DNA of 64,000 nt. Origin: Thalassospira profundimaris (GTDB taxonomy: Bacteria > Pseudomonadota > Alphaproteobacteria > Rhodospirillales > Thalassospiraceae). Shown in pieces: positions 13,064-64,000 of this stretch (the first letter of the stretch is position 1; each line of letters opens with the position of its first letter). The stretch spans positions 124,001 through 188,000 of the forward strand of contig NZ_JPWI01000004.1 in assembly GCF_003326795.1 (NCBI RefSeq). Reading direction: 5' to 3'. Under the pieces are notes generated by a model, which saw nothing but the letters and a program-made list of their open reading frames with translations, was not told the DNA's origin and did no database searches. A program made the position numbers and the translations under genes.

Positions 13064-13852
13064 CTAGCGATGTGTAGCAAAACAATCAGTGCCGTCAGAT
13101 TTAAGCTGGCGGCATTGTTGTTTTGCACCTTCATAACTGGCAAAGCCGGTAAGTTGAAGGCGATGATAAATGCCCTTGGTGCCAAGATCGGCCGTCACAA
13201 TCTGTTTGGTATGTGCTCTGGAAAGGTCGGGATACCTTACGAGGAAGCTCGCCCAATAGCTTTCGGCTGAAATGGTATCGCGAAATGCACCAAGCTGGAT
13301 CAGGTAAATCCCGCTTGTGTCGTTCCCAACAATATTTGGTGAACGGGACGCCGTTTCAGTCCTGATTGCAACCATCGGGGTTTGCTTTTCCGTTGCGCCG
13401 GTCGGGGCCGGTGCGGATGTGCCGGTTTCGGTTGTTTTGGTCGAAATCACCTTGGTCCTGGTGACGGTTGCATCTGGTGCTGTACGATTTTGACGCGCCG
13501 ATGCGGTTCCGGTCAGGGTCTGGTAATACTGGTTTGCCAATGACGGTATTTCTGCGTCGTCTTCAATACTGTTATCAACGGGAATGGTGCCGGGCAGCAA
13601 ACTTAAGGGCCGGTTTCGGTTCACCGGTTCAGAAGCATGTGCGGGCAAATCAGTCGGGATCATGTCGACACCGGTCGGCATGGTCGGGTTTTCCGGTGTC
13701 TGTGCGATTGCCAAAGGCGTTGAAGCAGTAGAAATCGCCCCGAAAGCCAGAAAGCCGACCAAAAGCAAAAGACCACCCCGGTTCCAGGATGCACAAACTC
13801 CATGCAACGCAGGTGCTGCATGTTGATTGCGATCACAGGGTGGTCTTGCCAT
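13064..13852 (-). CDS. SPOR domain protein with N-terminal signal/anchor
   Basis: 262 residues. An N-terminal hydrophobic segment (about residues 27-45, GGLLLLVGFLAFGAIS) followed by AIAQTPE suggests export or anchoring. The middle is Pro/Thr-rich and probably disordered. The last 75 residues form a SPOR domain (IYLIQLGAFRD...IYHRLQLTGFASYEGAKQQC), which in other proteins binds denuded glycan strands of septal peptidoglycan. The start lies 2 bases after the stop of the Lon-like protease gene, so the two are co-transcribed. I infer a cell-envelope or division role; pairing with a protease is unusual. Confidence 0.85.
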   Translation of the reverse strand: MARPPCDRNQHAAPALHGVCASWNRGGLLLLVGFLAFGAISTASTPLAIAQTPENPTMPTGVDMIPTDLPAHASEPVNRNRPLSLLPGTIPVDNSIEDDAEIPSLANQYYQTLTGTASARQNRTAPDATVTRTKVISTKTTETGTSAPAPTGATEKQTPMVAIRTETASRSPNIVGNDTSGIYLIQLGAFRDTISAESYWASFLVRYPDLSRAHTKQIVTADLGTKGIYHRLQLTGFASYEGAKQQCRQLKSDGTDCFATHR

Positions 13853-13854
13853 TG

Positions 13855-50083: not shown

Positions 50084-51286
50084 ATGTCTATCGTGGGGAA
50101 CACCGGCTATCGGGTTCTAATTTACAGTCATGATACGTTCGGGCTCGGCCATTTGCGCCGTTGCCGGACAATTGCACACGCACTTGTTTCACGTCGTGAT
50201 GATGTTTCAGTTCTGATTCTTTCGGGGTCGCCGATTATTGGCAGTTTCGAGTTCCGTTCGCGAGTCGATTTTGTCCGTATTCCGGGGGTTATAAAACTCT
50301 CTAACGGTGAATATACGTCGCTTAATCTGAATATCGATGTCGATCAGATTTTAGCGATGCGCGAGTCAATCATTCAGCATACTGCCGATGTGTTTAACCC
50401 CGACATCTTTATCGTGGATAAAGAACCGCTTGGCCTGCGCGGCGAGGTGGAATCCACGCTCAAGATGTTGCGCCATCGGCGCACCCGCTTGGTGATGGGC
50501 TTGCGCGATGTGATGGATGATCCGGTCAATCTGCGTGAGGAATGGGATCGCAAGCAATGTGTTCCGGCTCTTGCCGATCTCTATGACGAGATCTGGGTTT
50601 ATGGTCTGCAGGAAATCTGTAATCCGCTTGAAGGTATCGACTTGCCTGAAGGTGTGGAAGACAAGATGGCCTATACCGGTTATCTGCCGCGTACCGCGAC
50701 CCGGCGTCCAACGCCCGAGCATGGTGCCCTTGGTCTAGAAGAGCCCTATTACCTTGTTACCACCGGCGGTGGCGGGGATGGCATCAATCTGGTCGATTGG
50801 GTGATCAGTGCCTATGAGACAGATCCGACCATTGCTGTTCCGTCTCTGGTGGTTTTGGGGCCGTTCATGCCTCCTGCCGAACAAAAAGCCTTCATGGAAC
50901 GTGCCGAGAAGATCGATAAACTCTCGGTTATTACCTTTGATGCCAATGTTGAGATGCTGATGGACAGATCGGCTGGTGTCATTGCAATGGGTGGATACAA
51001 TACGTTCTGCGAAATCCTGTCCTTTGACAAGCCGGCCGTAATCGTGCCGCGAACGGTACCGCGACTTGAACAGTACGTTCGTGCGTCAGCAGCTGAAAAG
51101 CTTGGTTTGGTTAAGATGCTGACCGAGAGGGGTGGTCGTGATCCGCGCAAAATGGCAGATGCCCTTCACGGACTGATCAACCAGCCAAAGCCGTCGCACG
51201 TGACGGTGCCGAACCTGATGGGCGGGCTTGATCGCGTTGGCGATCTGGTTGACCGCTGGCTTCCGCCGCAAATGGCTGCTGAATAA
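50084..51286 (+). CDS. MurG-like glycosyltransferase (COG4671-type), first copy
   Basis: 400 residues. N-terminal domain starts VLIYSHDTFGLGHLRRC, like MurG's glycine-rich loop, and the C-terminal domain has GVIAMGGYNTFCEILSFDKP followed by AVIVPRTVPRLEQYVRASAA, typical of GT-B nucleotide-sugar binding. Relatives are annotated as predicted glycosyltransferases of unknown substrate. First gene of a chain of tightly spaced plus-strand genes (next start 21 bases on). It has a paralogue at 54.3 kb. The sugar and acceptor are unknown. Confidence 0.82.
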   Translation: MSIVGNTGYRVLIYSHDTFGLGHLRRCRTIAHALVSRRDDVSVLILSGSPIIGSFEFRSRVDFVRIPGVIKLSNGEYTSLNLNIDVDQILAMRESIIQHTADVFNPDIFIVDKEPLGLRGEVESTLKMLRHRRTRLVMGLRDVMDDPVNLREEWDRKQCVPALADLYDEIWVYGLQEICNPLEGIDLPEGVEDKMAYTGYLPRTATRRPTPEHGALGLEEPYYLVTTGGGGDGINLVDWVISAYETDPTIAVPSLVVLGPFMPPAEQKAFMERAEKIDKLSVITFDANVEMLMDRSAGVIAMGGYNTFCEILSFDKPAVIVPRTVPRLEQYVRASAAEKLGLVKMLTERGGRDPRKMADALHGLINQPKPSHVTVPNLMGGLDRVGDLVDRWLPPQMAAE

Positions 51287-51307
51287 GTATCACCGGGAAC
51301 AGAATTA

Positions 51308-52579
51308 ATGACACGCGACAATCTCGCAATCGTGGTGAAGGGGTATCCGCGATTGTCGGAAACCTTTATTGCGCAGGAAATTCTGGGCATTCAGCAGGCG
51401 GGTATCCCGTATCGCATCGTGTCTTTGCGTCACCCGACAGATAAAAAACGCCACCCGATCAATGATCGCATCACCGGTGCGGTCGACTACCTGCCTGAAT
51501 ATGTCTATCAGGAACCAATGCGGGTTCTGCGTGGATGGCTAAAGGCACGCAAGCTGCCGGGCTATCGTCGTGCTTTAAATATCTGGTGGCAGGACTATCG
51601 CCGGGATCGTACATCAAACCGTGCGCGCCGCTTTGCGCAGGCGCTGGTGATGGCAGCCGAACTTCCCGACGATATCACACGCATCTATGCCCATTTCCTG
51701 CATACCCCGGCATCTGTTGCACGTTACTGCGCGATCATACGGGGACTGCCATGGTCATGTTCGGCCCATGCCAAGGATATTTACACCAGTGAAGACTGGG
51801 ACATGCGCGAGAAGCTGCGCGATATGGACTGGCTTGTGACATGTACGAAGGCCAATGTGGATTATCTGCGCCAGCTTGCAGAAGATCCTGAAAAGGTGAA
51901 CCTGCTTTATCACGGTCTGGATTTTTCGCGCTTTCCGGAAGAACTTCCACAACGCCCAAGCCGGGACGGTCGTGATGCCAATGATCCGGTAACGATCCTT
52001 TCGGTCGGACGTCTGGTGGGGAAGAAGGGCTATGATGACTTGCTCCGTGCATTTGCCAAGCTTCCTGCGGATTTGCATTGGCGATTTATCCATATTGGCG
52101 GTGGCAGCGATGGCAAATACAAACAATTGGCGTCCGATCTCGGGATCGCCGCGAAATGTGACTGGCGTGGCGCACGTGATCAGAAGGAAGTCATTACAGC
52201 CTGTCAGTCATCCGATCTCTTTGTACTTGCCAGCCGGATCGAACAGGACGGTGACCGCGATGGTCTGCCCAATGTCTTGATGGAAGCACAGCTTTGTGGC
52301 CTGGCTGCTGTGTCGACCTCTATTTCCGCGATCCCCGAACTGATTGCCGATGGTGTGAATGGTAAACTGGTACCGGAACGCGATCCTGATGCATTGGCCA
52401 AGGCATTGGAAACGGTGATTTCCGACCCCGCCTTGCGCCATGAAATGGGCAGCAAAGGCAACGAAATCGTGCGTCGGGATTTTTCGTTCTATCGTGGTAT
52501 GAAGGAGCTTGCGCACCGGTTTGGTGTCACAGACTCCAAAGATAACAAAACGATCACCCGACAACCCGAAGCAGTTTAG
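51308..52579 (+). CDS. GT4-type glycosyltransferase
   Basis: 423 residues. GT-B fold with the GT4 signature: VTILSVGRLVGKKGYDDLL starts the C-terminal domain and the E-x7-E motif is in EQDGDRDGLPNVLMEAQLCG. The N-terminal part (VVKGYPRLSETFIAQEILG) is typical of colanic-acid-type or exopolysaccharide glycosyltransferases. Cytoplasmic, no signal peptide. ATG 51308 is the family-like start. The next gene's TTG start lies 11 bases downstream. Donor and acceptor are unknown. Confidence 0.87.
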   Translation: MTRDNLAIVVKGYPRLSETFIAQEILGIQQAGIPYRIVSLRHPTDKKRHPINDRITGAVDYLPEYVYQEPMRVLRGWLKARKLPGYRRALNIWWQDYRRDRTSNRARRFAQALVMAAELPDDITRIYAHFLHTPASVARYCAIIRGLPWSCSAHAKDIYTSEDWDMREKLRDMDWLVTCTKANVDYLRQLAEDPEKVNLLYHGLDFSRFPEELPQRPSRDGRDANDPVTILSVGRLVGKKGYDDLLRAFAKLPADLHWRFIHIGGGSDGKYKQLASDLGIAAKCDWRGARDQKEVITACQSSDLFVLASRIEQDGDRDGLPNVLMEAQLCGLAAVSTSISAIPELIADGVNGKLVPERDPDALAKALETVISDPALRHEMGSKGNEIVRRDFSFYRGMKELAHRFGVTDSKDNKTITRQPEAV

Positions 52580-52590
52580 GAGACACGCGA

Positions 52591-53727
52591 TTGCAGGTCG
52601 CCTTTTATGCGCCGCTGAAACCTGTTGACCATCCGGTGCCATCGGGGGATCGGCTGATTGCGCAGCTTTTGTGCGATGCGCTTGAGGTTGCTGACATGAA
52701 GGTCGACATTGCATCACGCCTCAGAAGCCGGGTTGCAGATGGCAATGGCCTTAAACAGGCGCGGCTTTCAGAACTCGGGGGCAAGCTCGCCGGACGGTTA
52801 TTGCGGCAATATCAGTCCGGTTTTCGTCCACGTCCGGATGTCTGGTTTACCTATCATCTTTATTACAAGGCACCTGACTGGATCGGACCGATCGTTGCTC
52901 ATGCACTTGATATTCCCTATGTGGTCGCCGAGGCATCTTTTGCACCTAAAAGATCGGATGGTCCCTGGCGCCAAAGCCATGCCGCGGTTGAAACCGCTTT
53001 GCGTCAATCTGAAGCGGTGTTTTCATTAAACCGATCGGATATGACCTGTTTGCAGGATGTTTGCAGGGACGACGTTCTGCATTTCATCGCACCCTTTACC
53101 CATGTCGACCGCTGGATCGTTAAAGATCGTGCGGGCATTGATCCGGATTGCCTCAGGTTGGTGACAACAGCGATGATGCGAGACGGAGACAAGCTGAAGT
53201 CATTTGCTGTCTTGGCGCGCGCGTTGGGGCGACTTCTGCGCAATGGTGTGACCAACTGGCATCTGACCGTTATTGGCGATGGCCCGGCCCGACATCGTGT
53301 CGAGTATCTCTTTGACGAGCAGGGTATCGCATCAGACCAGGTGAGTTTTTCCGGATTGTGTGTACCCGAAGAAACCCGGGATATCCTTGGGCAGTCTGAC
53401 CTGTTTGTATGGCCAGCAATAAACGAGGCATTCGGGATGGCGATGCTTGAAGCACAGGCGTCCGGCTTGCCTGTTCTGGCGGGAGATTCCGGGGGCGTGT
53501 CCGGTATCATATCAAACGGCACAACCGGCTGGCTGGTCCCGGTGGGGGATGAGGAGGCATTTTCTGATCGTCTTGCCAGTTGTCTGACCACGGATCTGGA
53601 TGTACTTCGACCATTTGGACAAGCTGGTGCATCTAAGGCATCGCAGCATCACACTGTTGCTGCGGCGGCAAACATCCTTGGCACGTCGCTTCGCAAGATT
53701 GCCTGTGATCATCAAAGGGGCGGATAA
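52591..53727 (+). CDS. GT4-type glycosyltransferase with TTG start
   Basis: 378 residues. N-terminal VAFYAPLKPVDHPVPSGDRL and the GT4 E-x7-E motif in NEAFGMAMLEAQASGLPVLA, followed by GGVSGIISNGTTGWLVP. The start is TTG 52591 because AGGAGA lies 8 bases upstream and the domain begins at once; no ATG gives a full-length protein. The stop overlaps the next start by one base (TAATG), so translation is coupled. A second GT4 step in the same pathway is inferred. Confidence 0.85.
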   Translation: MQVAFYAPLKPVDHPVPSGDRLIAQLLCDALEVADMKVDIASRLRSRVADGNGLKQARLSELGGKLAGRLLRQYQSGFRPRPDVWFTYHLYYKAPDWIGPIVAHALDIPYVVAEASFAPKRSDGPWRQSHAAVETALRQSEAVFSLNRSDMTCLQDVCRDDVLHFIAPFTHVDRWIVKDRAGIDPDCLRLVTTAMMRDGDKLKSFAVLARALGRLLRNGVTNWHLTVIGDGPARHRVEYLFDEQGIASDQVSFSGLCVPEETRDILGQSDLFVWPAINEAFGMAMLEAQASGLPVLAGDSGGVSGIISNGTTGWLVPVGDEEAFSDRLASCLTTDLDVLRPFGQAGASKASQHHTVAAAANILGTSLRKIACDHQRGG

Positions 53728-54335
53728 TGAAAGCCGTCCGATTTGCATTGCTCCGCCACGGTGTAACTGAGTGGAATGCTCAAAAACGTATTCAGGGACA
53801 TTCCGATGTATCGCTGAGTACTGATACCGTTGCTTCCTACCGGAAGCTTCGCCTGCCTGACGTTTGGCGTTCTGTTCCATGGTATTGTACCCCCTTGTCG
53901 CGTACCCGCGAGACAGCGGATGCCTTGTCCATTACGCCGGTTTCGCCTGAACCTGAGCTGATTGAAATGAACTGGGGGCAATGGGAAGGCAGAAGACTTC
54001 CTGAATTGCGTGCAGAACTTGGGGATACCATGCGCGAGAACGAGGATCGGGGTTGGGATTTTCGTCCCGATGGTGGTGAAAGTCCCCGCGATGTGTTGCA
54101 ACGGGTCGAGGGATTCTTGCGTCGCTCACCTGTGCCGGAATTTGGTGCCATTACCCACAAGGGCGTCATACGTGCAGTTTATGCCGCAGCAAAACCCTGG
54201 AATATGATGGGGAAAATACCCGACACGCTCGATTGGCAACGTTTGCATGTTTTTGAATGGAACGAGAAGGACGGGTTTTCAGTGTCCGAACTTAATGTGC
54301 CACTGATCGCTGTATCGGGGCTAAATGATGTCTGA
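53727..54335 (+). CDS. Histidine phosphatase (phosphoglycerate mutase-like)
   Basis: 202 residues. The RHG motif is at the start: ALLRHGVTEWNAQKRIQGHS, and the second catalytic His is in ITHKGVIRAVYA; Arg in CTPLSRTRETADAL supports phosphate binding. Enzymes of this family hydrolyse phosphate from sugars, nucleotides or proteins. Here it sits in the middle of glycosyltransferase genes with coupled starts, so dephosphorylation of a sugar-phosphate or lipid-linked intermediate is my inference; a housekeeping role is possible. Confidence 0.88.
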   Translation: MKAVRFALLRHGVTEWNAQKRIQGHSDVSLSTDTVASYRKLRLPDVWRSVPWYCTPLSRTRETADALSITPVSPEPELIEMNWGQWEGRRLPELRAELGDTMRENEDRGWDFRPDGGESPRDVLQRVEGFLRRSPVPEFGAITHKGVIRAVYAAAKPWNMMGKIPDTLDWQRLHVFEWNEKDGFSVSELNVPLIAVSGLNDV

Positions 54336-55458
54336 TGTCTTTGTTTATGTTCAGCATTTGCTGGGGATCGGCCATGTCAGACGCATGGCGTTGATCAATC
54401 AGGCAATGCGCGATAACGGGCTTTCGATCACCGTGGCGAGTGGTGGTGTGCCGGATGACGGGATTGATTTTGCCGCAGACCGGGTTGTTCAGCTTTCACC
54501 GTGTAAAACAGCAGACAGCAATTTCTCCGGTCTTGAGGACCCGAATGGCAATCTGCTTGGGGATGAGTGGAAAGAGCGCCGCAAGACAGAACTTCTTGCT
54601 GCATTCAAGGCTTCAGCTCCGAAACTGGTCCTGATCGAGATGTTCCCCTTTGGACGTCGGGCCTTTCGTTTTGAGCTGATCCCGTTATTGGAAGCCGCCA
54701 AAAAAGCTGGAATTCCAATCATCTGTTCGGTGCGTGATCTCCTGGTGCGCAAAAAGGACCCGGCCAAGACGCAATGGATGGCAGATATTGCGCGAAAATA
54801 TCTTGATGCGGTTCTGGTTCATGGCGATCCACAGTTGTTTGGCTTTGATCGCAGCTTTGCCCAAGCCGACCAGATTCCTGATTTAATTGTTCATACGGGA
54901 TATGTCGCACCGGCCATGAAAACTGGCGCGACGGTATCGCGCGAAGGAGTTCTGGTTTCGGCGGGTGGTGGTGCTGTCGGCGCAGAGCTGATCGAACTTG
55001 CTATTAATGCCCGCAGCCATTCCTCAAAATTTGGACAATCGCGCTGGGATATTGTCACCGGACCGCATTTTCCCGCCGCACGTTTTGATGCTGTTGCGCG
55101 GAATTTACCAGAAGGAATCACTCTTCATCGTTTTCTCCCTGACTTCCGGGAACGTATGGCCGGGGCCGCAGTTTCTGTGTCACAGGCTGGTTATAACACG
55201 CTGATGGACGTGCTTGCGACCAGAACACCTGCTGTTATGGTTCCTTTTGCCGAGGGGGGCGAAAGCGAGCAAACAGAGCGTGCAGAAATTCTTTCAAAAG
55301 AAGGGGTTATTTCCCTGCTTGATCTTGATGGCCTGTCTGCGCAATCATTAGCAAAACAGATTGATCGCGCCAGCCAACCGGCAAACGTAAAAATTGCATT
55401 GGATGGCGCGCAAAAGACTGCGTCAATTGTCGCAGGAATGATTAAGGGGCAGGTATGA
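54325..55458 (+). CDS. MurG-like glycosyltransferase (COG4671-type), second copy
   Basis: 377 residues. N-terminal FVYVQHLLGIGHVRRMALIN with a GxGHVRR loop and C-terminal VSVSQAGYNTLMDVLATRTP followed by AVMVPFAEGGESEQ give a GT-B nucleotide-sugar site. It parallels the protein at 50.1-51.3 kb at these motifs, though the overall sequences have diverged. ATG 54325 (or 54328) lies inside the preceding gene's end. The stop overlaps the deacetylase start by four bases. Confidence 0.8.
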   Translation: MMSDVFVYVQHLLGIGHVRRMALINQAMRDNGLSITVASGGVPDDGIDFAADRVVQLSPCKTADSNFSGLEDPNGNLLGDEWKERRKTELLAAFKASAPKLVLIEMFPFGRRAFRFELIPLLEAAKKAGIPIICSVRDLLVRKKDPAKTQWMADIARKYLDAVLVHGDPQLFGFDRSFAQADQIPDLIVHTGYVAPAMKTGATVSREGVLVSAGGGAVGAELIELAINARSHSSKFGQSRWDIVTGPHFPAARFDAVARNLPEGITLHRFLPDFRERMAGAAVSVSQAGYNTLMDVLATRTPAVMVPFAEGGESEQTERAEILSKEGVISLLDLDGLSAQSLAKQIDRASQPANVKIALDGAQKTASIVAGMIKGQV

Positions 55459-56213
55459 GCGGTTGGGATCAGTTGCGCACGGAGCTTGATCTGTGGCAAG
55501 CCGAAGGCGGCATTGCCACGGCTTGGTGGCGCGACGACGATGCCGTGACGGTTACCGCGGAACTTGAAACCATTCTTGCATTTGAGCAGGATTACAAAGT
55601 TCCGCTAGCGCTTGCAGTGATCCCGGCTCTGTTGGAGGACGCCCTTGTCGAGCGTCTGGTGGAAACCGTGGACACCCGTGTATTGCAGCATGGATGGTCT
55701 CATCAAAACCATATGCCGGAAGGTTGCAAAAAACAGGAACTTGACGACGTTCGTGATATCGGGGCGGTGGTTGCTGACTTGCGACAGGGGTTTCATGTTC
55801 TTGAAACGCGCTTTGGAAGCCGGTTCCTGCCTGTCGTGGTTCCGCCCTGGAACCGCATTGCCAGCGATGTTGTGGCGAGCCTGCACTCACTTGGGTTCCG
55901 GGGGCTAAGTACCTTTAATGCGCGCAAGACAGCCGAACCTTTCGAAGGACTTCTTCAGGTCAACACACATGTCGATGTCATCGATTGGCGCGGAACACGC
56001 GGCTTTGTTGGTGAAGATGTTGCTCTTGCTATGATGGTCAATCACCTGAAAGCCAGAAGAACAGGGCAGGTTGACAGGGATGAGCCAACCGGCATCCTGA
56101 CCCATCATCTTGTTCATGACGATCCAACGACCAAGTTTCTCGATAATTTGTTCTCTATGGAGCATGCTGCATTAAGCTGGCTTAGAATACCCGGGGTATT
56201 TCCATGGCAATAA
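55455..56213 (+). CDS. Polysaccharide deacetylase-like protein
   Basis: 252 residues. NodB-like metal triad looks present: Asp in AWWRDDDAVTV and two His in VLQHGWSHQNHMPEG; PPWNRIASDVVASLHSLGFR is another family motif. The HLVHDDPTTKFL stretch near the end gives a late catalytic-type His. No signal peptide is visible, which is unusual if it acts on an exported polymer, so it may act on a cytoplasmic glycan intermediate. Coupled to its neighbours by overlaps of 4 and 10 bases. Confidence 0.82.
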   Translation: MSGWDQLRTELDLWQAEGGIATAWWRDDDAVTVTAELETILAFEQDYKVPLALAVIPALLEDALVERLVETVDTRVLQHGWSHQNHMPEGCKKQELDDVRDIGAVVADLRQGFHVLETRFGSRFLPVVVPPWNRIASDVVASLHSLGFRGLSTFNARKTAEPFEGLLQVNTHVDVIDWRGTRGFVGEDVALAMMVNHLKARRTGQVDRDEPTGILTHHLVHDDPTTKFLDNLFSMEHAALSWLRIPGVFPWQ

Positions 56214-56836
56214 GTCCCAAAGATCATTTGCAAGCTGAATCCGCCGAAGGGCTAACTACCCATGCGGATCCTGTTAAACCTGTCGGGGTGGGGGACAGTG
56301 ATGTTCAGGTGATGGCTTATCCGGCCAAACTGATGGCGCCTGATCTGGCAAAATCAACTGTCGGCCTGTTGATCTGTGGTGTGATCGCGCTTATCCCCGA
56401 CATGCTTGAAATCATTCAATGGACGGCGGCCGGTCTGGCATTGCTGTTCATCTTTTATTTTGCTCGAACCCTGATCAGGCTGCAGTCCAAGCTGTTTGTC
56501 TCTGAATACGGTATTCGACTTTCAAGCCTGCGCGGGGGGACGGCTTTTGCATGGCCGGAACTTTCAAAGTTCCGTTTGCGTTATTTCAGTACCAAACGCG
56601 ATGGAAATAAAGGCTGGTTCGAACTAACGCTTCATGCTGGCGAAACCAAAATTGTCGCAGAATCAACACTGGACGGATTTGACGATCTGCTTGAAATTTC
56701 ACGGGATTGGGCGAAAGATAACCAAATTCTTGTTGACGACGTTACAAGAACAAACCTGATGCGTCTGGATGAGGCTGAAACACTTGTTCAGGCTGCTGCG
56801 GCAGAGCGCTCAAATGGTGGTGCCAAACGAACATGA
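56204..56836 (+). CDS. Two-helix membrane protein with PH-like domain, unknown function
   Basis: 210 residues. A hydrophilic N-terminus of about 50 residues is followed by two closely spaced membrane helices (about 52-66, and WTAAGLALLFIFYFARTLI near 75-93) and a C-terminal soluble part that looks like a bacterial PH-type beta domain (SKLFVSEYGIRLSSLRGG, FAWPELSKFRLRYFSTKR, KGWFELTLHAGE). I recognise no named family. It begins inside the deacetylase gene and ends inside the ABC ATPase gene, so it is physically tied to both and may link glycan synthesis to transport. Confidence 0.72.
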   Translation: MAISPKDHLQAESAEGLTTHADPVKPVGVGDSDVQVMAYPAKLMAPDLAKSTVGLLICGVIALIPDMLEIIQWTAAGLALLFIFYFARTLIRLQSKLFVSEYGIRLSSLRGGTAFAWPELSKFRLRYFSTKRDGNKGWFELTLHAGETKIVAESTLDGFDDLLEISRDWAKDNQILVDDVTRTNLMRLDEAETLVQAAAAERSNGGAKRT

Positions 56837-58761
56837 CTGACATTCTGCGTATCAAGGATCTGAAAGTTGAGTTCGTCTTGCCGCATATGCGGGTCAAGGC
56901 TGTCGAAAACGTAAGCTTTCGCATCGGTGCGCAGGAAACGGTCGCTCTGGTCGGGGAGTCCGGATCAGGCAAAAGCACAATCTCGCAAGCAATCATGGGA
57001 CTGTTGCCGAAATCAGCACAGATTACCAAAGGATCAATAATCTTCGCGGACCCGAAGAAACCGGGAACGCGTGTTGATCTTGCCATGCTTGATCGTTCGG
57101 GTGCCGAAATGCGTGCGATCCGCGGTGGTCGCATTTCAATGATCTTCCAGGAACCGATGAGTTCCCTGTCACCGCTTCATACCATTGGTGACCAGATTTG
57201 TGAGGCCGTCCGCCTTCATCGCAAGGTAGGCCGGGCAGAGGCCAACGAACTTGCAATCGAAATGTTGACCCTGATCGGTTTCCCGCAGCCAAAGAGGGCG
57301 CTTAAAACATATCCGTTTGAATTGTCCGGTGGTCTGCGACAGCGCGCGATGATCGCAATGGCAATGGTCTGTCGCCCGGCTTTGCTGGTGGCGGATGAAC
57401 CGACAACCGCCCTTGATGTAACAATTCAGGCGCAAATTCTTCGCCTTATCAAGGAAGTGCAAAGCGAACTGCAGATGTCGGTTTTGCTGATCACGCACGA
57501 TCTGGGTGTGGTCGCCAACATGGCAGACCGGATGGTCGTCGTATATGATGGCCGGGTTGTCGAGGCAGGGAAGACCGATGATGTTTTCATCAATCCCGGT
57601 CATGCATATACCCGGTCACTTTTGGCTGCCGTACCGCATTTCAATATGGGCCCGGACGAGCGGTTGCGTCCTTTACGGGAAATCAAACCCAAAACCGGAA
57701 GTCTGTTTTCCGAAAGCAACCAGACAGATGGTACGCGAGATGCGCCGGAAATTCCGCCGTCACTTGCGTTGCATCCGGCCATGGCAAGCGAGCCTGTCCT
57801 GGCGGTGCGCCATCTCAGCAAAAGCTTTAGCACGCGCAAGGGCAACTGGATCAAATCAGAAGAACGGCTGGTTCCCGCTGTTGATGATGTGTCCATCACG
57901 GTTAATCGTGGCGAATGCGTCGGTCTGGTCGGGGAAAGCGGATGTGGCAAGACAACACTTTCCAAACTGATCATGCGGGCGATGGAGCCTGATACCGGTT
58001 CGATCCTGTTTCGCGGTGAAAGTGGTCAGATGACCGAGTTGACCGGTCTTGATGAAGATCAGCTCAATCCATACCGGAAGCGGATACAATTCGTGTTTCA
58101 GGACCCGTTTGGATCGCTTAACCCACGAATGACAGTTCAGGATATCATTGCAGAACCAATGATCATTCACGGGGTCGGGGATAGTGCATATCGCAAACAG
58201 ATGGTGCTTGAGCTGATGGATCTTGTCGGGCTTGATCCACGTTTTCTAAGTCGCTATCCGCACAGTTTTTCAGGGGGGCAGCGTCAGCGCATCGGCATTG
58301 CACGCGCACTTAGCCTGAAGCCGGATTTGCTGATCTTTGATGAACCGACCTCTGCGCTTGATGTGTCTGTTCAGGCGCAAATACTTAATTTGTTGAAAGA
58401 CTTGCAGCGTAATCTTAATCTGACATATCTGTTTATTTCTCACAATCTGGCAGTCGTCGATTACATCGCGGACCGGATTGCTGTGATGTGTGCAGGCCGC
58501 ATTGTTGAGTCAGCCCCTCGCGAACAGCTGTTTAAGAACCCGGTGCATCCATATACGCAGGCGTTGCTGAATGCCGTGCCGTTTGCCGATCTGGATCATT
58601 TGCTCGACTTCGACAAAATTGTTGATGGCAAGGCATCTGATCCGGCACGCTGGCCAGCACCCTTTACGATCAATGACACCAGTGCGCCCAAGATGATGCA
58701 ATTTGCAGAAGACCATTTTGTACGCGCTGAACGTGCCGATTTTACGGAGGTCGCAATATGA
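56833..58761 (+). CDS. Peptide-class ABC transporter, fused double ATPase
   Basis: 642 residues, two ATPase units in one chain of the Dpp/Opp kind. First: Walker A GESGSGKSTIS, signature LSGGLRQRAMIAMAM, Walker B LLVADEPTTALD. Second: GESGCGKTTLSK, FSGGQRQRIGIARAL, LLIFDEPTSALD. Each is followed by the family's C-terminal zipper (YTRSLLAAVPHF; YTQALLNAVPF). Fused ATPases of this type serve importers of peptides, nickel, opines or oligosaccharides. ATG 56833 overlaps the previous stop by four bases and its own stop overlaps the binding-protein start, so the transporter is coupled to the glycan genes. Confidence 0.93.
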   Translation: MTDILRIKDLKVEFVLPHMRVKAVENVSFRIGAQETVALVGESGSGKSTISQAIMGLLPKSAQITKGSIIFADPKKPGTRVDLAMLDRSGAEMRAIRGGRISMIFQEPMSSLSPLHTIGDQICEAVRLHRKVGRAEANELAIEMLTLIGFPQPKRALKTYPFELSGGLRQRAMIAMAMVCRPALLVADEPTTALDVTIQAQILRLIKEVQSELQMSVLLITHDLGVVANMADRMVVVYDGRVVEAGKTDDVFINPGHAYTRSLLAAVPHFNMGPDERLRPLREIKPKTGSLFSESNQTDGTRDAPEIPPSLALHPAMASEPVLAVRHLSKSFSTRKGNWIKSEERLVPAVDDVSITVNRGECVGLVGESGCGKTTLSKLIMRAMEPDTGSILFRGESGQMTELTGLDEDQLNPYRKRIQFVFQDPFGSLNPRMTVQDIIAEPMIIHGVGDSAYRKQMVLELMDLVGLDPRFLSRYPHSFSGGQRQRIGIARALSLKPDLLIFDEPTSALDVSVQAQILNLLKDLQRNLNLTYLFISHNLAVVDYIADRIAVMCAGRIVESAPREQLFKNPVHPYTQALLNAVPFADLDHLLDFDKIVDGKASDPARWPAPFTINDTSAPKMMQFAEDHFVRAERADFTEVAI

Positions 58762-60689
58762 TGAAGCATTGTGCCAGTTCGACTGTATCAGCGCACCGCA
58801 TGTTCGGTGGCCTGATCATCGGGATGGGGCTTGTTGGTGCTTCTTTGATGCCGGTGATGGCACAGGCAGAAGTTCCGTATTTTGAGGACGCTGTCGCCAA
58901 GGGTACCTTGCCGGCAATGCTCGAGCGGCTTCCGGAACATCCAAACGTCATTGATTTTGGTGCCGAGGATAAAACCATCGGAAAATATGGTGGTGAATTC
59001 GTCACCATTATGGGGCGTTCCAAGGATATCCGTATGGCTGTCGTATATGGCTATGCGCGTCTGGTCGGTTATGATCAGGACCTGAATTTACAGCCCGATA
59101 TTCTAGAAGCACTGGACGTGAACGAAGAAGGTAACGTGTTTACGCTTCATCTGCGCAAGGGGCACAAATGGTCCGATGGTGAGCCCTTCACTGCCGAGGA
59201 TTTCAGATATTATTGGGAAGACATCGTCAATAACGACGAATTGTTCCCGGTTGGTCCGCCGCGCTTCCTGTTTGTTGGTGATGAACCGGCAACCTTCGAA
59301 GTTCTGGACGAATACACCGTTCGCTACAGCTGGTCACAGCCCAATCCGTTTTTCCTGACCGAGCTGGCAGCAACCCGTCCGCCGTTTATTTATCGCCCGG
59401 CGCATTACCTTAAACAGTTCCATGAAAAATATCGTGACCATGATGAGCTTGAGCAACTGGTTCACGAACGTGGATTGCGCAGTTGGGCTGTTCTTCACAC
59501 GGATCTGGACCGCCCCTATAAGCTTTCGAACATCAACCGCCCGTCGCTTGAACCCTGGCTGATCACAACGGAGGAACCGTCTGACCGGTTCGTGTTTGTG
59601 CGCAACCCGTATTATCACCGTGTCGATCCCGAGGGAAATCAGCTGCCTTATATCGACAAGATGATCTTCAATATCTCGAACTCGAAACTGGTGCCGGCCA
59701 AAGTTGGGGCAGGAGAGGTCGATCTCCAAAGCCGTATCCTGTCTCTTAAGGATTACACTTTCCTCAAGCAGTCCGAGGGCAAACAGAATTATCAGGTTCG
59801 CCTTTGGGATGTCGGTGCAGGTTCCTATGCGGCCCTTTATCCCAATCTGACATGTTCGGATCCGGTTTGGCGCGATGTCATGCGCGATGTACGTTTTCGC
59901 CGCGCCCTGTCGCTTGGGATCAACCGTACTGAAATCAACCGGGTTCTGTTCTTTGGGCTAGCGCAACCCACCAACAATACGGTTCTGCCAAAAAGCCCGC
60001 TTTTCAAACCCGAATATCGCGAGAATTACGTCAAGTTTGATGTAAAGGCGGCCAACGCATTGCTCGATGACATGGGCCTTGATCAGCGCAACGATGATGG
60101 CATCCGTTTGCTGCCTGACGGCCGCCCGATGGAAATCATCGTCGAGACTACTGGCGAGAATCCTGAACATGACGACATGCTCGAGCTGATTGGTGACAGC
60201 TGGCGTCAGATCGGCATCAAGATGTTTGTCAAAGGCTTGCAGCGCGAGGTTCTTCGTAATCGCGCCTATAGTGGCGAAACCATCATGTCGATCTTTAACG
60301 GGGTCGATAACGGTCTGGCGACGGCCAACTCTGTTCCATCTGAATTCGTTCCCGTACAGCAAGACAGTCTGCAATGGCCGAAATGGGGGCAGTATTATCA
60401 GACCGACGGCGAGGCAGGCGAAACGCCAGACATGCCCGCTGCCAAGGAACTGATGGATCTGTATCGCAAATGGCAGACCAGCAATGAAAAGGGCCGGAGG
60501 GAAGCCTGGCAGGGCATTCTTGATATCAACTCTGAAAACATGTTCTCGATCGGACTGATCGGCAATGTGCCGCAGCCTGTCGTCGTTGACAAAGACCTGC
60601 GCAATGTCCCGGAAAAAGGCATTCATAGCTGGGAACCAGGTGCATTCTTCGGGATTTATCGTCCGGACACATTCTGGTGGGACAGATAA
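58758..60689 (+). CDS. Peptide-class ABC transporter, large solute-binding protein
   Basis: 643 residues. Signal peptide ends VMAQAEVPY; SBP_bac_5 features include FTLHLRKGHKWSDGEPFTAE and PLFKPEYRENYVKFDVKAAN. At over 600 residues it is longer than dipeptide or oligopeptide binding proteins (about 530), and fits the large subgroup that I recall for alpha-galactoside (AgpA-like) uptake. GGAGG precedes ATG 58758 by 8 bases. An 8-bp hairpin (60712-60745) follows, possibly protecting this message from decay. Ligand is unknown. Confidence 0.92.
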   Translation: MMKHCASSTVSAHRMFGGLIIGMGLVGASLMPVMAQAEVPYFEDAVAKGTLPAMLERLPEHPNVIDFGAEDKTIGKYGGEFVTIMGRSKDIRMAVVYGYARLVGYDQDLNLQPDILEALDVNEEGNVFTLHLRKGHKWSDGEPFTAEDFRYYWEDIVNNDELFPVGPPRFLFVGDEPATFEVLDEYTVRYSWSQPNPFFLTELAATRPPFIYRPAHYLKQFHEKYRDHDELEQLVHERGLRSWAVLHTDLDRPYKLSNINRPSLEPWLITTEEPSDRFVFVRNPYYHRVDPEGNQLPYIDKMIFNISNSKLVPAKVGAGEVDLQSRILSLKDYTFLKQSEGKQNYQVRLWDVGAGSYAALYPNLTCSDPVWRDVMRDVRFRRALSLGINRTEINRVLFFGLAQPTNNTVLPKSPLFKPEYRENYVKFDVKAANALLDDMGLDQRNDDGIRLLPDGRPMEIIVETTGENPEHDDMLELIGDSWRQIGIKMFVKGLQREVLRNRAYSGETIMSIFNGVDNGLATANSVPSEFVPVQQDSLQWPKWGQYYQTDGEAGETPDMPAAKELMDLYRKWQTSNEKGRREAWQGILDINSENMFSIGLIGNVPQPVVVDKDLRNVPEKGIHSWEPGAFFGIYRPDTFWWDR

Positions 60690-60711
60690 GCCTTTTGAAC
60701 CAATAACAGGG

Positions 60712-60745
60712 CGTTTTGCTGCCAACGAGGGAAGGGCGCAAAACG
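60712..60745 (+). repeat. Intercistronic hairpin after binding-protein gene
   Basis: CGTTTTGC (60712-60719) pairs with GCAAAACG (60738-60745) around an 18-base loop, between the binding-protein stop and the first permease start. No T-run follows, so it fits message stabilisation rather than termination. Confidence 0.55.
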
Positions 60746-60766
60746 ACAGGGGGAGCGATTTCGCCG

Positions 60767-61765
60767 ATGCTGACTTACTTGGCAAGACGGCTTTTTGTAA
60801 TGGTGCCAACACTGATCATGATCAGTGTGCTGGTATTCGTGATCATTCAGCTCCCGCCGGGCGATTTCCTAAGTACCTATCTGAACGAACTTCAGGCCCA
60901 GGGCGAAGCAGTCGACCCCGCAAAGATCGAATTTCTGAAGCGGCAATACGGCCTCGATCAGCCGATCTATGTCCAGTATGTGGAATGGGCATGGGGGCTA
61001 CTGCATGGTGATCTTGGCTTTTCGTTTGAATATAACCTGCCGGTAACCGATGTGGTCGGTGACCGCCTTTGGCTGTCGATGGTGCTGAATTTCAGCACCG
61101 TGATTTTCATCTATATCGTCAGTTTTCCGATCGGGATTTATTCGGCTACCCGCCAGTATAGCTGGGGCGATTACGGTTTTACCCTGTTAGGATTCCTTGG
61201 CCTTGCGATGCCAAACTTCCTGTTTGCGCTGATCCTGCTTTATTATGCGAATGTCATTTTCGGTACATCGATCGGCGGCTTGATGGACCCGGAATTCATC
61301 AATCAGGGGTGGTCCTTTGCCAAGATCATGTCAGTTGCGGAGCATCTTTGGGCACCTGTCGTCGTGATCGGGACATCGGGTACGGCTTCGATGATCCGTC
61401 GGTTGCGCGCAAACCTCCTTGATGAACTGAGCAAGCAATATGTTGTTACCGCACATGCCAAGGGACTGTCGCCAACCAAGGTTCTATTCAAGTATCCGCT
61501 ACGGATGGCGCTGAACCCGTTTATTGCGGACATCGGTAATATCCTGCCGCAGGTGGTATCAGGATCGGTTCTGGTGTCTGTTGTGATGTCCTTGCCGACA
61601 ACAGGTCCGATGCTGCTCGCTGCGCTGCAGAGCCAGGACATGTATCTGGCGGGCTCGTTCCTGATGTTTCTGGCACTTCTGACTGTGGTCGGTATGTTCA
61701 TATCCGATGTTTTGCTGGCCTGGCTTGACCCCCGCATTCGTTTGCAGGGAGGTGTGATGAAATGA
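60767..61765 (+). CDS. Peptide-class ABC transporter permease (DppB-like)
   Basis: 332 residues, about six helices. The N-terminus LTYLARRLFVMVPTLIMISV and VFVIIQLPPGDFLSTYL are typical of DppB/OppB; the conserved loop QYVVTAHAKGLSPTKVLFKY precedes the last helices. ATG 60767 has GGGGAG about 11 bases upstream; the ORF start at 60716 lies inside the preceding hairpin. The stop overlaps the next permease start (ATGA). Confidence 0.93.
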   Translation: MLTYLARRLFVMVPTLIMISVLVFVIIQLPPGDFLSTYLNELQAQGEAVDPAKIEFLKRQYGLDQPIYVQYVEWAWGLLHGDLGFSFEYNLPVTDVVGDRLWLSMVLNFSTVIFIYIVSFPIGIYSATRQYSWGDYGFTLLGFLGLAMPNFLFALILLYYANVIFGTSIGGLMDPEFINQGWSFAKIMSVAEHLWAPVVVIGTSGTASMIRRLRANLLDELSKQYVVTAHAKGLSPTKVLFKYPLRMALNPFIADIGNILPQVVSGSVLVSVVMSLPTTGPMLLAALQSQDMYLAGSFLMFLALLTVVGMFISDVLLAWLDPRIRLQGGVMK

Positions 61766-62931
61766 GCACGGACAGCAACAAGCGCAACGAACATTACGTC
61801 GATGCGACACCGTTCGATCCATGGGATCGCGAAGCCCTGACGCCGGAACAGGAAAAATACTATCTGGCATCACAGTGGCAATTGATGTGGTGGCGACTTA
61901 AACGCCATCGGTTGGCGTATTTTTCGCTGATCATTCTGGCCATCATGTATGCGTCTGTGCTGATTGTTGAGTTCATCGCACCCTATGCGCAAGAAAGCAG
62001 AAATTCAGAATTCATTCATCATCCGCCGCAAGGTATTCATCTGTTCCATGATGGGAAATTTGTTGGTCCGTTTACCTATGGCACCGATTTCTCGGTTGAT
62101 ATGGAAACGCTCAAGCCGACTTATGTTGTCAATAAGGACCGCGTAAACCCCATCAGATTTTTCTGCTCAGGCGATGAATATGCGTTCTGGGGGATGGTCG
62201 ATATGGATTTCCATTTCGTCTGTCCGGCAGATGATGGAACGCTGTTTATCTTTGGTACGGATCGACTGGGGCGAGACATGTTTTCGCGCATTATATATGG
62301 CGCGCGCGTTTCACTGACCATCGGACTTGTCGGTATATCGGTCAGCTTCCTTCTTGGTGTCCTGATCGGCGGGGCGGCTGGGTATTACGGTGGCTGGGTT
62401 GACGCAACAGCTCAGCGCACCATCGAGGTCATCCGGTCACTACCGGAAATCCCGCTCTGGATGGCGCTTTCCGCAGCCTTGCCGGTAACCTGGAGCCCGG
62501 TTCTGATCTATTTCGGGATCACCATCATTCTCGGCCTTATTGACTGGACAGGGCTTGCCCGCGCTGTGCGTTCAAAGCTCCTTGCCCTTAGGGAAGAAGA
62601 TTATGCATTGGCGGCACGCCTTATGGGGGCAAAGCCAAAGCGTATTATTGCCCGCCATCTTTTGCCGAACTTTGCAAGCCATCTGATTGCGTCTGTAACA
62701 CTTTCCATTCCAAACATGATCCTTGGTGAAACGGCGCTAAGCTTTCTGGGACTGGGATTGCGCGCGCCGGTAACCAGTTGGGGAGTTCTTTTGAACGATG
62801 CCCAGAATATCAACGCCGTGGCGGTTTATCCGTGGCTGATGTTGCCGGTGGTACCGGTTGTGATCGTGGTGCTGGCGTTCAATTTCCTCGGTGACGGGCT
62901 GCGTGATGCGGCCGATCCCTATAAGAACTGA
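61762..62931 (+). CDS. Peptide-class ABC transporter permease (DppC-like, with large periplasmic insert)
   Basis: 389 residues. Basic N-terminal tail, one helix near 55-75, then an insert of about 100 residues (FIHHPPQGIHLFHDGKFVGP through FHFVCPADDGTLFIFGTDRL) before the permease core GLVGISVSFLLGVLIGGAAG. The EAA-type loop is EEDYALAARLMGAKPKRIIA. The insert is absent from dipeptide DppC and resembles that of the alpha-galactoside-type AgpC permeases as I remember them. It supports a sugar-oligomer substrate, but this is inference. Confidence 0.9.
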   Translation: MSTDSNKRNEHYVDATPFDPWDREALTPEQEKYYLASQWQLMWWRLKRHRLAYFSLIILAIMYASVLIVEFIAPYAQESRNSEFIHHPPQGIHLFHDGKFVGPFTYGTDFSVDMETLKPTYVVNKDRVNPIRFFCSGDEYAFWGMVDMDFHFVCPADDGTLFIFGTDRLGRDMFSRIIYGARVSLTIGLVGISVSFLLGVLIGGAAGYYGGWVDATAQRTIEVIRSLPEIPLWMALSAALPVTWSPVLIYFGITIILGLIDWTGLARAVRSKLLALREEDYALAARLMGAKPKRIIARHLLPNFASHLIASVTLSIPNMILGETALSFLGLGLRAPVTSWGVLLNDAQNINAVAVYPWLMLPVVPVVIVVLAFNFLGDGLRDAADPYKN

Positions 62932-62938
62932 TTCTGCG

Positions 62939-63445
62939 ATGACTTCGGCCATCCCGAGACTTGAAACAGATCGTCTGATATTGCGTGAGATCTCGATCGC
63001 AGATTGGCCAGAATATCGGTCTATGTTGATGTCCGAACGCGCCATTCATATGGGCGGCCCGTACTCATTGGCCGGTGCTTGGGGAATGTTCTGTGCGGAT
63101 ACCGCGCAATGGTCGCTGTTTGGCGTCGGAGCATTGATGATTGAGGAAAAATCAACGGGGCTTTGTGTTGGTCAGGTCGGCATCAATCATGGACCACTTT
63201 TCCCCGAACACGAACTGGGTTGGCTGCTTTATCAAGATGCCGAAGGACGCGGAATAGCGACCGAAGCCGCTATTGCCATGCGTGCATGGGCCTTTGGTGT
63301 CCGCAAATTGACGACACTCGTCAGCTATATTACGCCCGATAATCATCGATCCATCGGGCTTGCCAGACGGCTTGGCGCAGTCCTCGATCATGATGCACAA
63401 CGTCCCGATCCCGAAGACCTCGTCTTTCGGCATCAGGCTCCTTAA
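62939..63445 (+). CDS. GNAT N-acetyltransferase (RimJ/RimL-like)
   Basis: 168 residues. N-terminal LETDRLILREISIADWPEY is typical of the RimJ/RimL type; the acetyl-CoA loop is DAEGRGIATEAAIAMRAWAF and VSYITPDNHRSIGLARRLGA follows. ATG 62939 is chosen; the frame is open to 62891 inside the permease gene. It starts 7 bases after the permease stop, so it is probably the last gene of the chain. It could acetylate a sugar, an amino acid or a protein; the substrate is unknown. Confidence 0.85.
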   Translation: MTSAIPRLETDRLILREISIADWPEYRSMLMSERAIHMGGPYSLAGAWGMFCADTAQWSLFGVGALMIEEKSTGLCVGQVGINHGPLFPEHELGWLLYQDAEGRGIATEAAIAMRAWAFGVRKLTTLVSYITPDNHRSIGLARRLGAVLDHDAQRPDPEDLVFRHQAP

Positions 63446-63452
63446 CGCATCC

Positions 63453-64000
63453 TTATTTCTTACGGAGCCACAAGCTGGTTTCAAGCGCGCCGTCAGGAAG
63501 GTGGATGCCGTTGGCAATTGATTTTTCAATCAGTCCGCCAAGTCGTGTCGTCGCATAGGCGCTCGACCACAAGACTTCAAACCCGTTACCGGCAAGAAGC
63601 GATGCAACGCCTTGTTGCTCGTTATATCCGCGCCATTGCCAGATTTCCGGATAGTCATCGGGAAGCGTGATGTCATGGATATGGATGATGGTACCGCTTG
63701 GCAGAACCGGGATGACAGTTGAAAACAACAAGTCGACATCTGTGCCAGGCATCAGGATATGGCTCGAATCAATCGACAGAATGTCTGATCCTGCAAGCGT
63801 TGCGAATACGGCCGGATCGGCCTTTTGTACTATGGCTCGTTCAATCGTGATTGGAAGTTTTGCAATATCGGCACGCGGGGCGGGATCAATGGCGTGGAAG
63901 TCGGTGGCAAGTTCGCCGTCGCGGATGGCACGATGATAAAACCGTGTTGAATGTCCTGAACCGATTTCAACGATACGGTTCGGGCGGAATTCACGGGTAA
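63453..64000 (-). CDS. Class I SAM-dependent methyltransferase, C-terminal part
   Basis: The frame is open to the window edge, so the N-terminus lies outside; about 182 residues are visible. Motif I reads RIVEIGSGHSTRFYHRA and HIHDITLPDDYP supplies a later catalytic-type segment, as in the methyltransferase-24 family. The stop at 63453-63455 is eight bases from the convergent GNAT gene. Relatives often lie in surface-polysaccharide gene regions and modify sugars, which fits the neighbouring glycan genes; the substrate is not shown. Confidence 0.82.
   Translation of the reverse strand, partial: TREFRPNRIVEIGSGHSTRFYHRAIRDGELATDFHAIDPAPRADIAKLPITIERAIVQKADPAVFATLAGSDILSIDSSHILMPGTDVDLLFSTVIPVLPSGTIIHIHDITLPDDYPEIWQWRGYNEQQGVASLLAGNGFEVLWSSAYATTRLGGLIEKSIANGIHLPDGALETSLWLRKK

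Follow-up and report, generated by a model that had tools for sequence, protein, structure and literature searches.

Predicted glycan-synthesis and Opp/Dpp-type importer genes form a conserved alphaproteobacterial block that co-occurs with an MsbA-like exporter family

Layout of the gene block

In a 64,000-nucleotide stretch of the Thalassospira profundimaris genome (contig NZ_JPWI01000004.1, positions 124,001 to 188,000; hereafter the window), we analysed a block of 12 genes, all on the + strand, at 50084..63445, in which predicted glycan enzymes are followed by the genes of an ABC importer. Listing of open reading frames (ORFs) and checks of start and stop codons placed the junctions between -11 (overlap) and +77 bases. 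In window positions, the block and the gene facing its end read as follows:

50084..51286, +, MG1, GT-B glycosyltransferase with a GT28 C-terminal domain (PF04101, 28.4 bits, over cut-off)
51308..52579, +, G4a, GT4 glycosyltransferase (PF00534, 113.6 bits)
52591..53727, +, G4b, GT4 glycosyltransferase with a TTG start (PF00534, 92.1 bits)
53727..54335, +, HPh, histidine phosphatase, no signal peptide-like segment (PF00300, 112.2 bits)
54325..55458, +, MG2, second GT28-type glycosyltransferase (PF04101, 46 bits)
55455..56213, +, DAC, predicted CE4-like deacetylase, no signal peptide-like N-terminus (predicted fold, invariant residues)
56204..56836, +, PHm, small membrane protein with a possible bPH domain (two hydrophobic segments by hydropathy)
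56833..58761, +, importer ATPase, two fused nucleotide-binding domains (ABC_tran in two stretches, oligo_HPY)
58758..60689, +, SBP, periplasmic binding protein with a signal peptide-like N-terminus (SBP_bac_5, 217 bits)
60767..61765, +, importer permease 1 (BPD_transp_1, BPD_transp_1_N)
61762..62931, +, importer permease 2, OppC-type (BPD_transp_1, OppC_N)
62939..63445, +, GNAT acetyltransferase (Acetyltransf_3, 87.6 bits)
63453..64000, -, SMT2, methyltransferase-like, runs past the window end (50% identical to the gene that follows permease 2 in relative L072)

An earlier note on this DNA had described a tightly packed 13-kb chain, and its ORFs, strand and overlaps all proved exact; the families it named (glycosyltransferases, phosphatase, ATPase, binding protein, permeases and GNAT) likewise agreed with Pfam. 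The overlaps lie at 53727 (1 base), 54325 (11), 55455 (4), 56204 (10), 56833 (4), 58758 (4) and 61762 (4), with gaps of 21 bases at 51286/51308 and 11 bases at 52579/52591. For permease 1 we prefer the ATG at 60767, giving a gap of 77 bases, over the listed TTG at 60716, which leaves 26 bases; GNAT probably starts at the ATG at 62939. Across 28 other Thalassospira stretches (27 genomes, with script-estimated start codons), the ten junctions of the core ranged from -87 to +80 bases, with -4 the commonest value and the single -87 probably due to a misplaced start. The overlaps between the synthesis and import halves were retained in most of these stretches. Because the core junctions are similarly tight across the genus, the tightness of the block is more than chance.

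A split of the chain at 56.8 kb by an internal promoter and terminator, which the earlier note had named as evidence that would count against it, was dispelled in part. The junction there measures -4 to +16 bases in the Thalassospira stretches, and a sequence scan found no promoter-like site at this position. Over 49.5-64 kb the scan returned 7 promoter-like sites, where 12.6 were expected from shuffled sequence, with three on the + strand within the block (51836, 53699 and 57520). Terminator-like sites in the same interval numbered 21 (15.4 expected, standard deviation 3.7); one of them, at 56556-56574, lies inside the PHm gene, so that an internal stop in the block is possible.

The inclusion of GNAT in the chain did not hold up, since a homologue occurred in only 5 of the 28 Thalassospira stretches; judged by this distribution, GNAT is probably a variable passenger and not part of the core. 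SMT2, which we take to be methyltransferase-like, partly from the annotation of its neighbours, converges on the block, its end lying 7 bases past GNAT, and recurs in the relatives' stretches described below (11 of the 40 from the class, 6 of the 20 from the order).

Conservation and a co-occurring exporter family

Gene presence in fetched stretches was counted by tblastn. Among 80 genomes searched, a deacetylase match was found in the own genome, in 28 of 28 from the genus and in 19 of 51 from the order. Twenty stretches from other families of the order contained MG1 in 14 cases, 12 of them with importer genes as well and the other two cut by contig ends; identities to the window proteins were lowest for the membrane protein, at about 28%, and highest for a permease, at 77%.

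The class-wide sample consisted of 289 genomes drawn evenly from Alphaproteobacteria, the own genome included. MG1 was present in 92 of these (E<=1e-100), the deacetylase in 84 (E<=1e-15), the binding protein in 91 (E<=1e-100) and a family of ABC exporters in 96 (E<=1e-90); at looser limits, MG1 and the binding protein reached 97 and 94 genomes, the weaker rows being omitted from the main counts. MG1 and the binding protein occurred together in 88 genomes and alone in 4 and 3, respectively, and lay at most 15 kb apart in 63 of 67 genomes with both on one contig. For MG1 and the deacetylase, the corresponding figures were 82 together, 10 and 2 alone, and 64 of 66 within 15 kb; for MG1 and the exporter, 90 together, 2 and 6 alone, and 61 of 68. 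Fisher tests of co-occurrence gave p < 1e-57, a value that ignores the kinship of these genomes. A phylum-wide draw of 349 genomes, again including the own, held MG1 (E<=1e-60) in 26, 24 of them Alphaproteobacteria.

From 39 of the 94 class genomes in which MG1 or the deacetylase was found, we fetched 40 stretches, giving preference to long contigs. Importer genes were present in 33 of the 36 that hold MG1, and in two of the exceptions (L132 and L138) the binding protein lies just beyond the stretch end, the third being genome G274; PHm was present in 27 of the 40. Synthesis and import genes thus form a conserved neighbourhood, linked in most related genomes examined, and the unlinked arrangement that the earlier note had offered as a refutation is not what most relatives show. 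Rhizobium etli p42e, Phyllobacterium, Sulfitobacter and Azospirillum ramasamyi each carry a version of the core.

Several variants were seen alongside. In L108, L111 and L115 the block has the importer ATPase and permeases without the binding protein, whose match sits elsewhere in the genome. A second small gene, which we presume to be methyltransferase-like, recurs near the block in 21 stretches (for example L126:15996-16592, +). Just upstream of MG1, L077:15917-18407 (-) holds a second deacetylase paralogue beside what we take to be a GNAT-like and a radical-SAM-like gene. Distant versions on E. coli plasmid pCFSAN004181P (L098) and a Manganitrophus plasmid (L097) combine GT28 and GT4 transferases and ABC transporter genes with an 'alginate export' protein and kinase-like genes; the Manganitrophus plasmid adds an alginate-lyase-family gene and a histidine phosphatase.

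The exporter family comprises MsbA-like proteins, roughly 880-1190 residues long, in which an ABC exporter transmembrane domain is combined with an ATPase domain split by a long insert; PF00664 (ABC_membrane) scored 95, 84, 85 and 71 bits in the four exporters scanned. A cyclic-nucleotide-binding domain is either fused or encoded by the next gene, and one of three scanned, that of L072, contains a GGDEF domain. In many relatives the exporter gene is near MG1 and often divergent from it; of the stretches with MG1, 24 of the 36 from the class and 11 of the 14 from the order also contain the exporter. It is absent from the fetched Thalassospira stretches around the block, and an orthologue was found in the own genome and in 28 of 28 Thalassospira genomes searched (E<=1e-154); in the five with both on one contig (G005, G010, G013, G019 and G027), it lies more than 1 Mb from the block. 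The own copy is an ORF of 1073 residues with a cyclic-nucleotide domain-like end. A second ORF of 404 amino acids in the own genome (G000:C16:19525-20433) matches the first 321 exporter residues only, at 45% identity.

An alignment of ATPase sites in 44 exporter rows, a few of them near-identical and three from Thalassospira, showed the Walker A Lys in 25 rows and the Ser/Thr after it in 8; Walker B Asp was seen in 11, catalytic Glu in 20 and switch His in 13. The three Thalassospira exporters keep four of these five residues, lacking the switch His and also the LSGGQ signature. Among nine other PF00664 matches of the own genome used as controls, for which simple patterns took the place of the 44-row alignment, six had Walker A, Walker B and His, L153 had Walker A and B, L154 Walker A and His, and L155 none. 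Since the residues are degenerate in all 44 exporter rows, these proteins are perhaps not normal exporters; judging from the alignment, the ATPase domain may work unusually, or export may be powered otherwise. Two or three copies of an 'xxDNLLFG'-like segment were also noticed in 32 of the 44 exporters, L070:1789-4428 (-) and L143:7773-10994 (-) being among the 44 rows aligned.

Enzymes, importer and hints at the product

MG1, presumably COG4671-like, matched the MurG and MJ1255 models below their cut-offs and found no match in a sequence search of the PDB. The structural neighbours of its AlphaFold 2 model (predicted local distance difference test, pLDDT, 81) are general UGT/GT-B enzymes that indicate no donor. 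Distant PDB relatives of G4a include mannosyl- and mycothiol-type GT4 enzymes. HPh has relatives of the alpha-ribazole-phosphatase type in the PDB, and among 50 rows of orthologues at least 90% retain its residues R10, H11, E80 and H144.

Both the deacetylase and the PH-like label of the earlier note lay under Pfam cut-offs (DAC 13.6 bits, cut-off 23.1; PHm 15.1 bits for bPH_6, cut-off 22), and the former gained support from a predicted fold. An AlphaFold 2 model of DAC from 36 sequences (pLDDT 95) had 3rxz as its best PDB match (E 4.9e-8, TM 0.64, identity 15%), and its top five solved neighbours are all polysaccharide or peptidoglycan deacetylases. Invariant across the 36 sequences are W24-W25-R26-D27-D28-D29, H79, H83, PPWNR and H217-H218; we read D27-D29, H79 and H83 as the CE4 Asp-His-His metal site. 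With a deformed barrel in the model and this Asp-His-His set, DAC is assigned as a predicted CE4 (NodB-fold) deacetylase, sharing fold, invariant Asp and two His with NodB and other CE4 enzymes; it differs from typical members in its low identity to the best structure and in having no Pfam match over cut-off. DAC shows no signal peptide-like segment by hydropathy and is therefore probably cytoplasmic. Its presence in the block suggests a product with an N-acetylated sugar.

Importer parts (SBP_bac_5, OppB- and OppC-type permeases and oligo_HPY ATPase domains) were all over their Pfam cut-offs, which by sequence places the system in the Opp/Dpp (SBP_bac_5) type. Among solved relatives of the binding protein are 5ipw (313 bits), SPH1118 (251 bits across 579 residues, same SBP family) and MelB (123 bits). 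SPH1118 is a pectin-binding protein of Sphingomonas sp. A1 in which Arg57, Arg438 and Trp594 are called particularly important (PMC9314435). In a HMMER alignment compared by eye, with the numbering checked against Arg47, Asn49, Asn53 and Arg57 of that report, Arg57 and Arg438 align with Val95 and Asn468 of the block protein, unlike Trp594, Arg466 and Arg294, whose counterparts are retained by 46, 49 and 47, respectively, of the 53 orthologues aligned. SPH1118-type pectin binding was rejected, as Trp594 alone of the three stressed residues has a counterpart. In the block protein itself, Arg92, Arg326, Arg496 and Trp625 are retained in 50, 47, 49 and 46 of the 53 rows. Nickel- and staphylopine-type models, run on the ATPase, the binding protein and permease 1, were also rejected: the binding protein reached 91 bits with NikA (cut-off 393) and 63 with CntA (cut-off 800), permease 1 reached 178 with NikB (cut-off 447), and the ATPase alone passed. 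From these comparisons, the importer is likely oligosaccharide-type, with no specificity assigned.

Pfam found no flippase or polymerase, ABC-2 permease or synthase among the twelve genes, and on that count the locus was not assigned to Wzx/Wzy, ABC-2 or synthase export. No outer-membrane partner or receptor occurred among the four gene families that recur in the flanks; by that absence only, a periplasmic or membrane-bound product is favoured. An ORF near the block in L102, L103, L104 and L124 (for example L102:17666-18499), which we take to be the undecaprenyl-diphosphatase UppP, could bear on a lipid-linked intermediate.

In some relatives the block comes with further genes, for a UDP-sugar dehydrogenase, a polysaccharide lyase or an MscS-type channel. 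On Sinorhizobium meliloti pSymB, the core is flanked by genes for a UDP-sugar dehydrogenase, an adenylate cyclase, a PF14099 lyase, an MscS-type channel and a methyltransferase. Glucuronan biosynthesis genes were still called unknown in 2023 (PMC10180729), and the dehydrogenase and the lyase together make this locus a glucuronan candidate, as a lead only. For the window block itself, glucuronan was rejected as the product, the block having neither a dehydrogenase nor a lyase gene. Nor did a sequence search of the PDB give the PF14099 lyase any match better than chance. We also considered a link to the capsule by way of smb20804/smb20805 (PMC5539429); with the locus tags of the pSymB block unreadable we make no claim. 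In strain 1021, the matches to the pSymB exporter and to the adenylate cyclase are each spread over two frames, as a frameshift would cause (L141:26724-29433 and 13468-14813), which may be real or a sequencing difference; the exporter ORF is open in the S. meliloti 2011 and R28 records.

The nearest described analogue that we found is a different S. meliloti locus, the msbA2 operon (SMb21188-SMb21191), proposed to synthesize and export an unknown polysaccharide by means of two glycosyltransferases and an MsbA-type exporter, a combination akin to the one described here (PMC3687685; PMC12239276). The two were told apart by coordinates and tblastn: on pSymB of strain 1021, msbA2 lies at 938 kb and the counterpart of the block at 837 kb, and block proteins searched against 932-950 kb gave ABC-domain and Opp-type matches only, with no transferase match. 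A 600-amino-acid ORF at 941.3-943.1 kb, which we take by position to be MsbA2, has Walker A and B by pattern and no His match. About 2 kb past the operon (945-950 kb; L156:13193-18001) lies an Opp-type importer-like set at 25-43% identity, a possible second pairing of glycan export and import. No published description of the block locus was found in the titles and abstract beginnings of the entries listed from a partial, mostly non-subscription literature.

A possible pathway of synthesis, export and recovery

Gene order, its conservation, the co-occurrence of enzymes, importer and exporter, the domain families and the predicted CE4-like fold are seen directly. On this basis we propose, as a reading that in our judgement could fall either way, that the block serves one pathway in which an envelope glycan is made in the cytoplasm, exported and partly recovered. 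The two GT28-type and two GT4 transferases would build a short or repeating glycan, which the CE4-like deacetylase (probably cytoplasmic) and the histidine phosphatase would finish or prime. The MsbA/NdvA-like exporter with its cyclic-nucleotide-binding domain would move it to the periplasm, and the SBP_bac_5-type importer would take back oligosaccharide pieces from there. The earlier note had spoken of a product made, trimmed and partly recovered; such a cycle needs an exit step, a gap that the co-occurring exporter family may fill. Taken as a whole, its account is partly supported.

The proposal draws support from the tightness of the block in the own genome and the 28 genus stretches, from the co-occurrence of MG1 with binding protein (88 genomes) and exporter (90), from the pectin and alpha-galactoside binders among the relatives of the binding protein, and from the predicted CE4-like fold with its invariant Asp and His residues. 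NdvA and ChvA, MsbA-like exporters of cytoplasm-made periplasmic cyclic glucan, resemble the linked exporter, which differs from them in the long insert of its degenerate ATPase domain and in its cyclic-nucleotide-binding domain. A precedent for the recovery step is YejBEF-YepA of Agrobacterium, described as ABC-mediated recovery of cell-wall glycan (PMC9790009); by Yej models, the block importer belongs to the same superfamily. That all parts act on one common product, that the exporter faces outwards, that recovery takes place and which sugars the product contains is what we infer.

A number of observations weigh against it. Pfam found neither a lipid-carrier enzyme, polymerase or flippase nor a cleaving enzyme among the twelve genes; trimming, as the earlier note had it, is hinted at by the polysaccharide-lyase gene of the S. 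meliloti and Phyllobacterium versions, which has no equal among the twelve. Not one of the 44 exporter rows holds all five ATPase residues. The oligosaccharide-like label for the importer agrees with SPH1118 and MelB and sits poorly with 5ipw, the best solved relative, a Thermotoga protein deposited as oligopeptide-binding, and the importer ATPase, below the GsiA and YejF cut-offs, passes those of NikD, NikE, CntF and CntD (whole-protein scores, both domains summed). One of the 40 class stretches, and none of the 20 from the order, holds a linked UDP-sugar dehydrogenase; with linkage this rare, uronate is no general inference, and perhaps belongs to the product of the few versions that have the gene. 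Among relatives, the histidine phosphatase was not found in the rhizobial stretches, MG1 stands alone on an Azospirillum oryzae plasmid, and a Jiella stretch has no MG1. The block pieces are truly scattered in genome G274, and in G144, G356 and G171 the binding protein stands apart from the remaining importer genes.

These last four genomes, together with L066 and Rhizobium etli, where the importer genes precede MG1, speak for two ancient operons that travel together without a shared pathway. We consider this improbable, as 88 of the 95 genomes with MG1 or binding protein have both, even off one contig, and most genus stretches preserve the overlaps that join the halves. It is also rather unlikely that the importer supplies precursors, feeding outside oligosaccharides to the transferases and deacetylase with no recovery. 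The deacetylase and phosphatase do look cytoplasmic, where imported sugar would arrive, and characterised relatives of the binding protein work in nutrient uptake, MelB for alpha-galactosides and SPH1118 for pectin (PMC9314435); yet none of the twelve genes was identified by Pfam as a glycoside hydrolase or as sugar-catabolic, the two SPH1118 arginines are not kept, and co-occurrence is as strict for the exporter as it is for the importer.

A locus that joins synthesis genes to an exporter and an Opp/Nik-type importer also has the layout of systems that export a small glycoconjugate, such as a metal carrier or a signal, and re-import it with its cargo; the staphylopine cnt operon is a precedent. 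The ATPase scores with the Nik and Cnt models fit such a secreted shuttle, an explanation to which we give little weight: binding protein and permease 1 stay far under the NikA, CntA and NikB cut-offs, the recurrent flank families include no outer-membrane receptor, and Pfam found no amino-acid or opine chemistry among the twelve genes. A Yej-type muropeptide importer, with the transferases acting in cell-wall recycling, is largely refuted and seems to us highly implausible. The importer superfamily is shared and the YejF and YejB models do match, yet below cut-off (ATPase with YejF 585 bits, cut-off 834; block permease with YejB 130 and 119.5 bits in two scans, cut-off 445), and the own genome holds a separate permease over the YejB cut-off (about 553 bits, C1:690148).

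The reading of synthesis, export and partial recovery can be taken one step further, to a class-wide glycan cycle in which a deacetylated glycan of cytoplasmic origin would pass out through a cyclic-nucleotide-responsive ABC protein without normal ATP hydrolysis, gating its export and not pumping it, and would be recovered with the use of ATP by a dedicated importer from the one operon; we regard this extension as speculative and rather doubtful. Predicted biosynthesis, export and recovery genes are here tied together in a set found in about a third of sampled Alphaproteobacteria, model rhizobia included, for which we know of no described product. As a transporter, an ABC protein that pairs a degenerate ATPase site with a domain for cyclic-nucleotide binding would be out of the ordinary, and if recovery is real, the block would represent a route of envelope-glycan recycling beside that of peptidoglycan.

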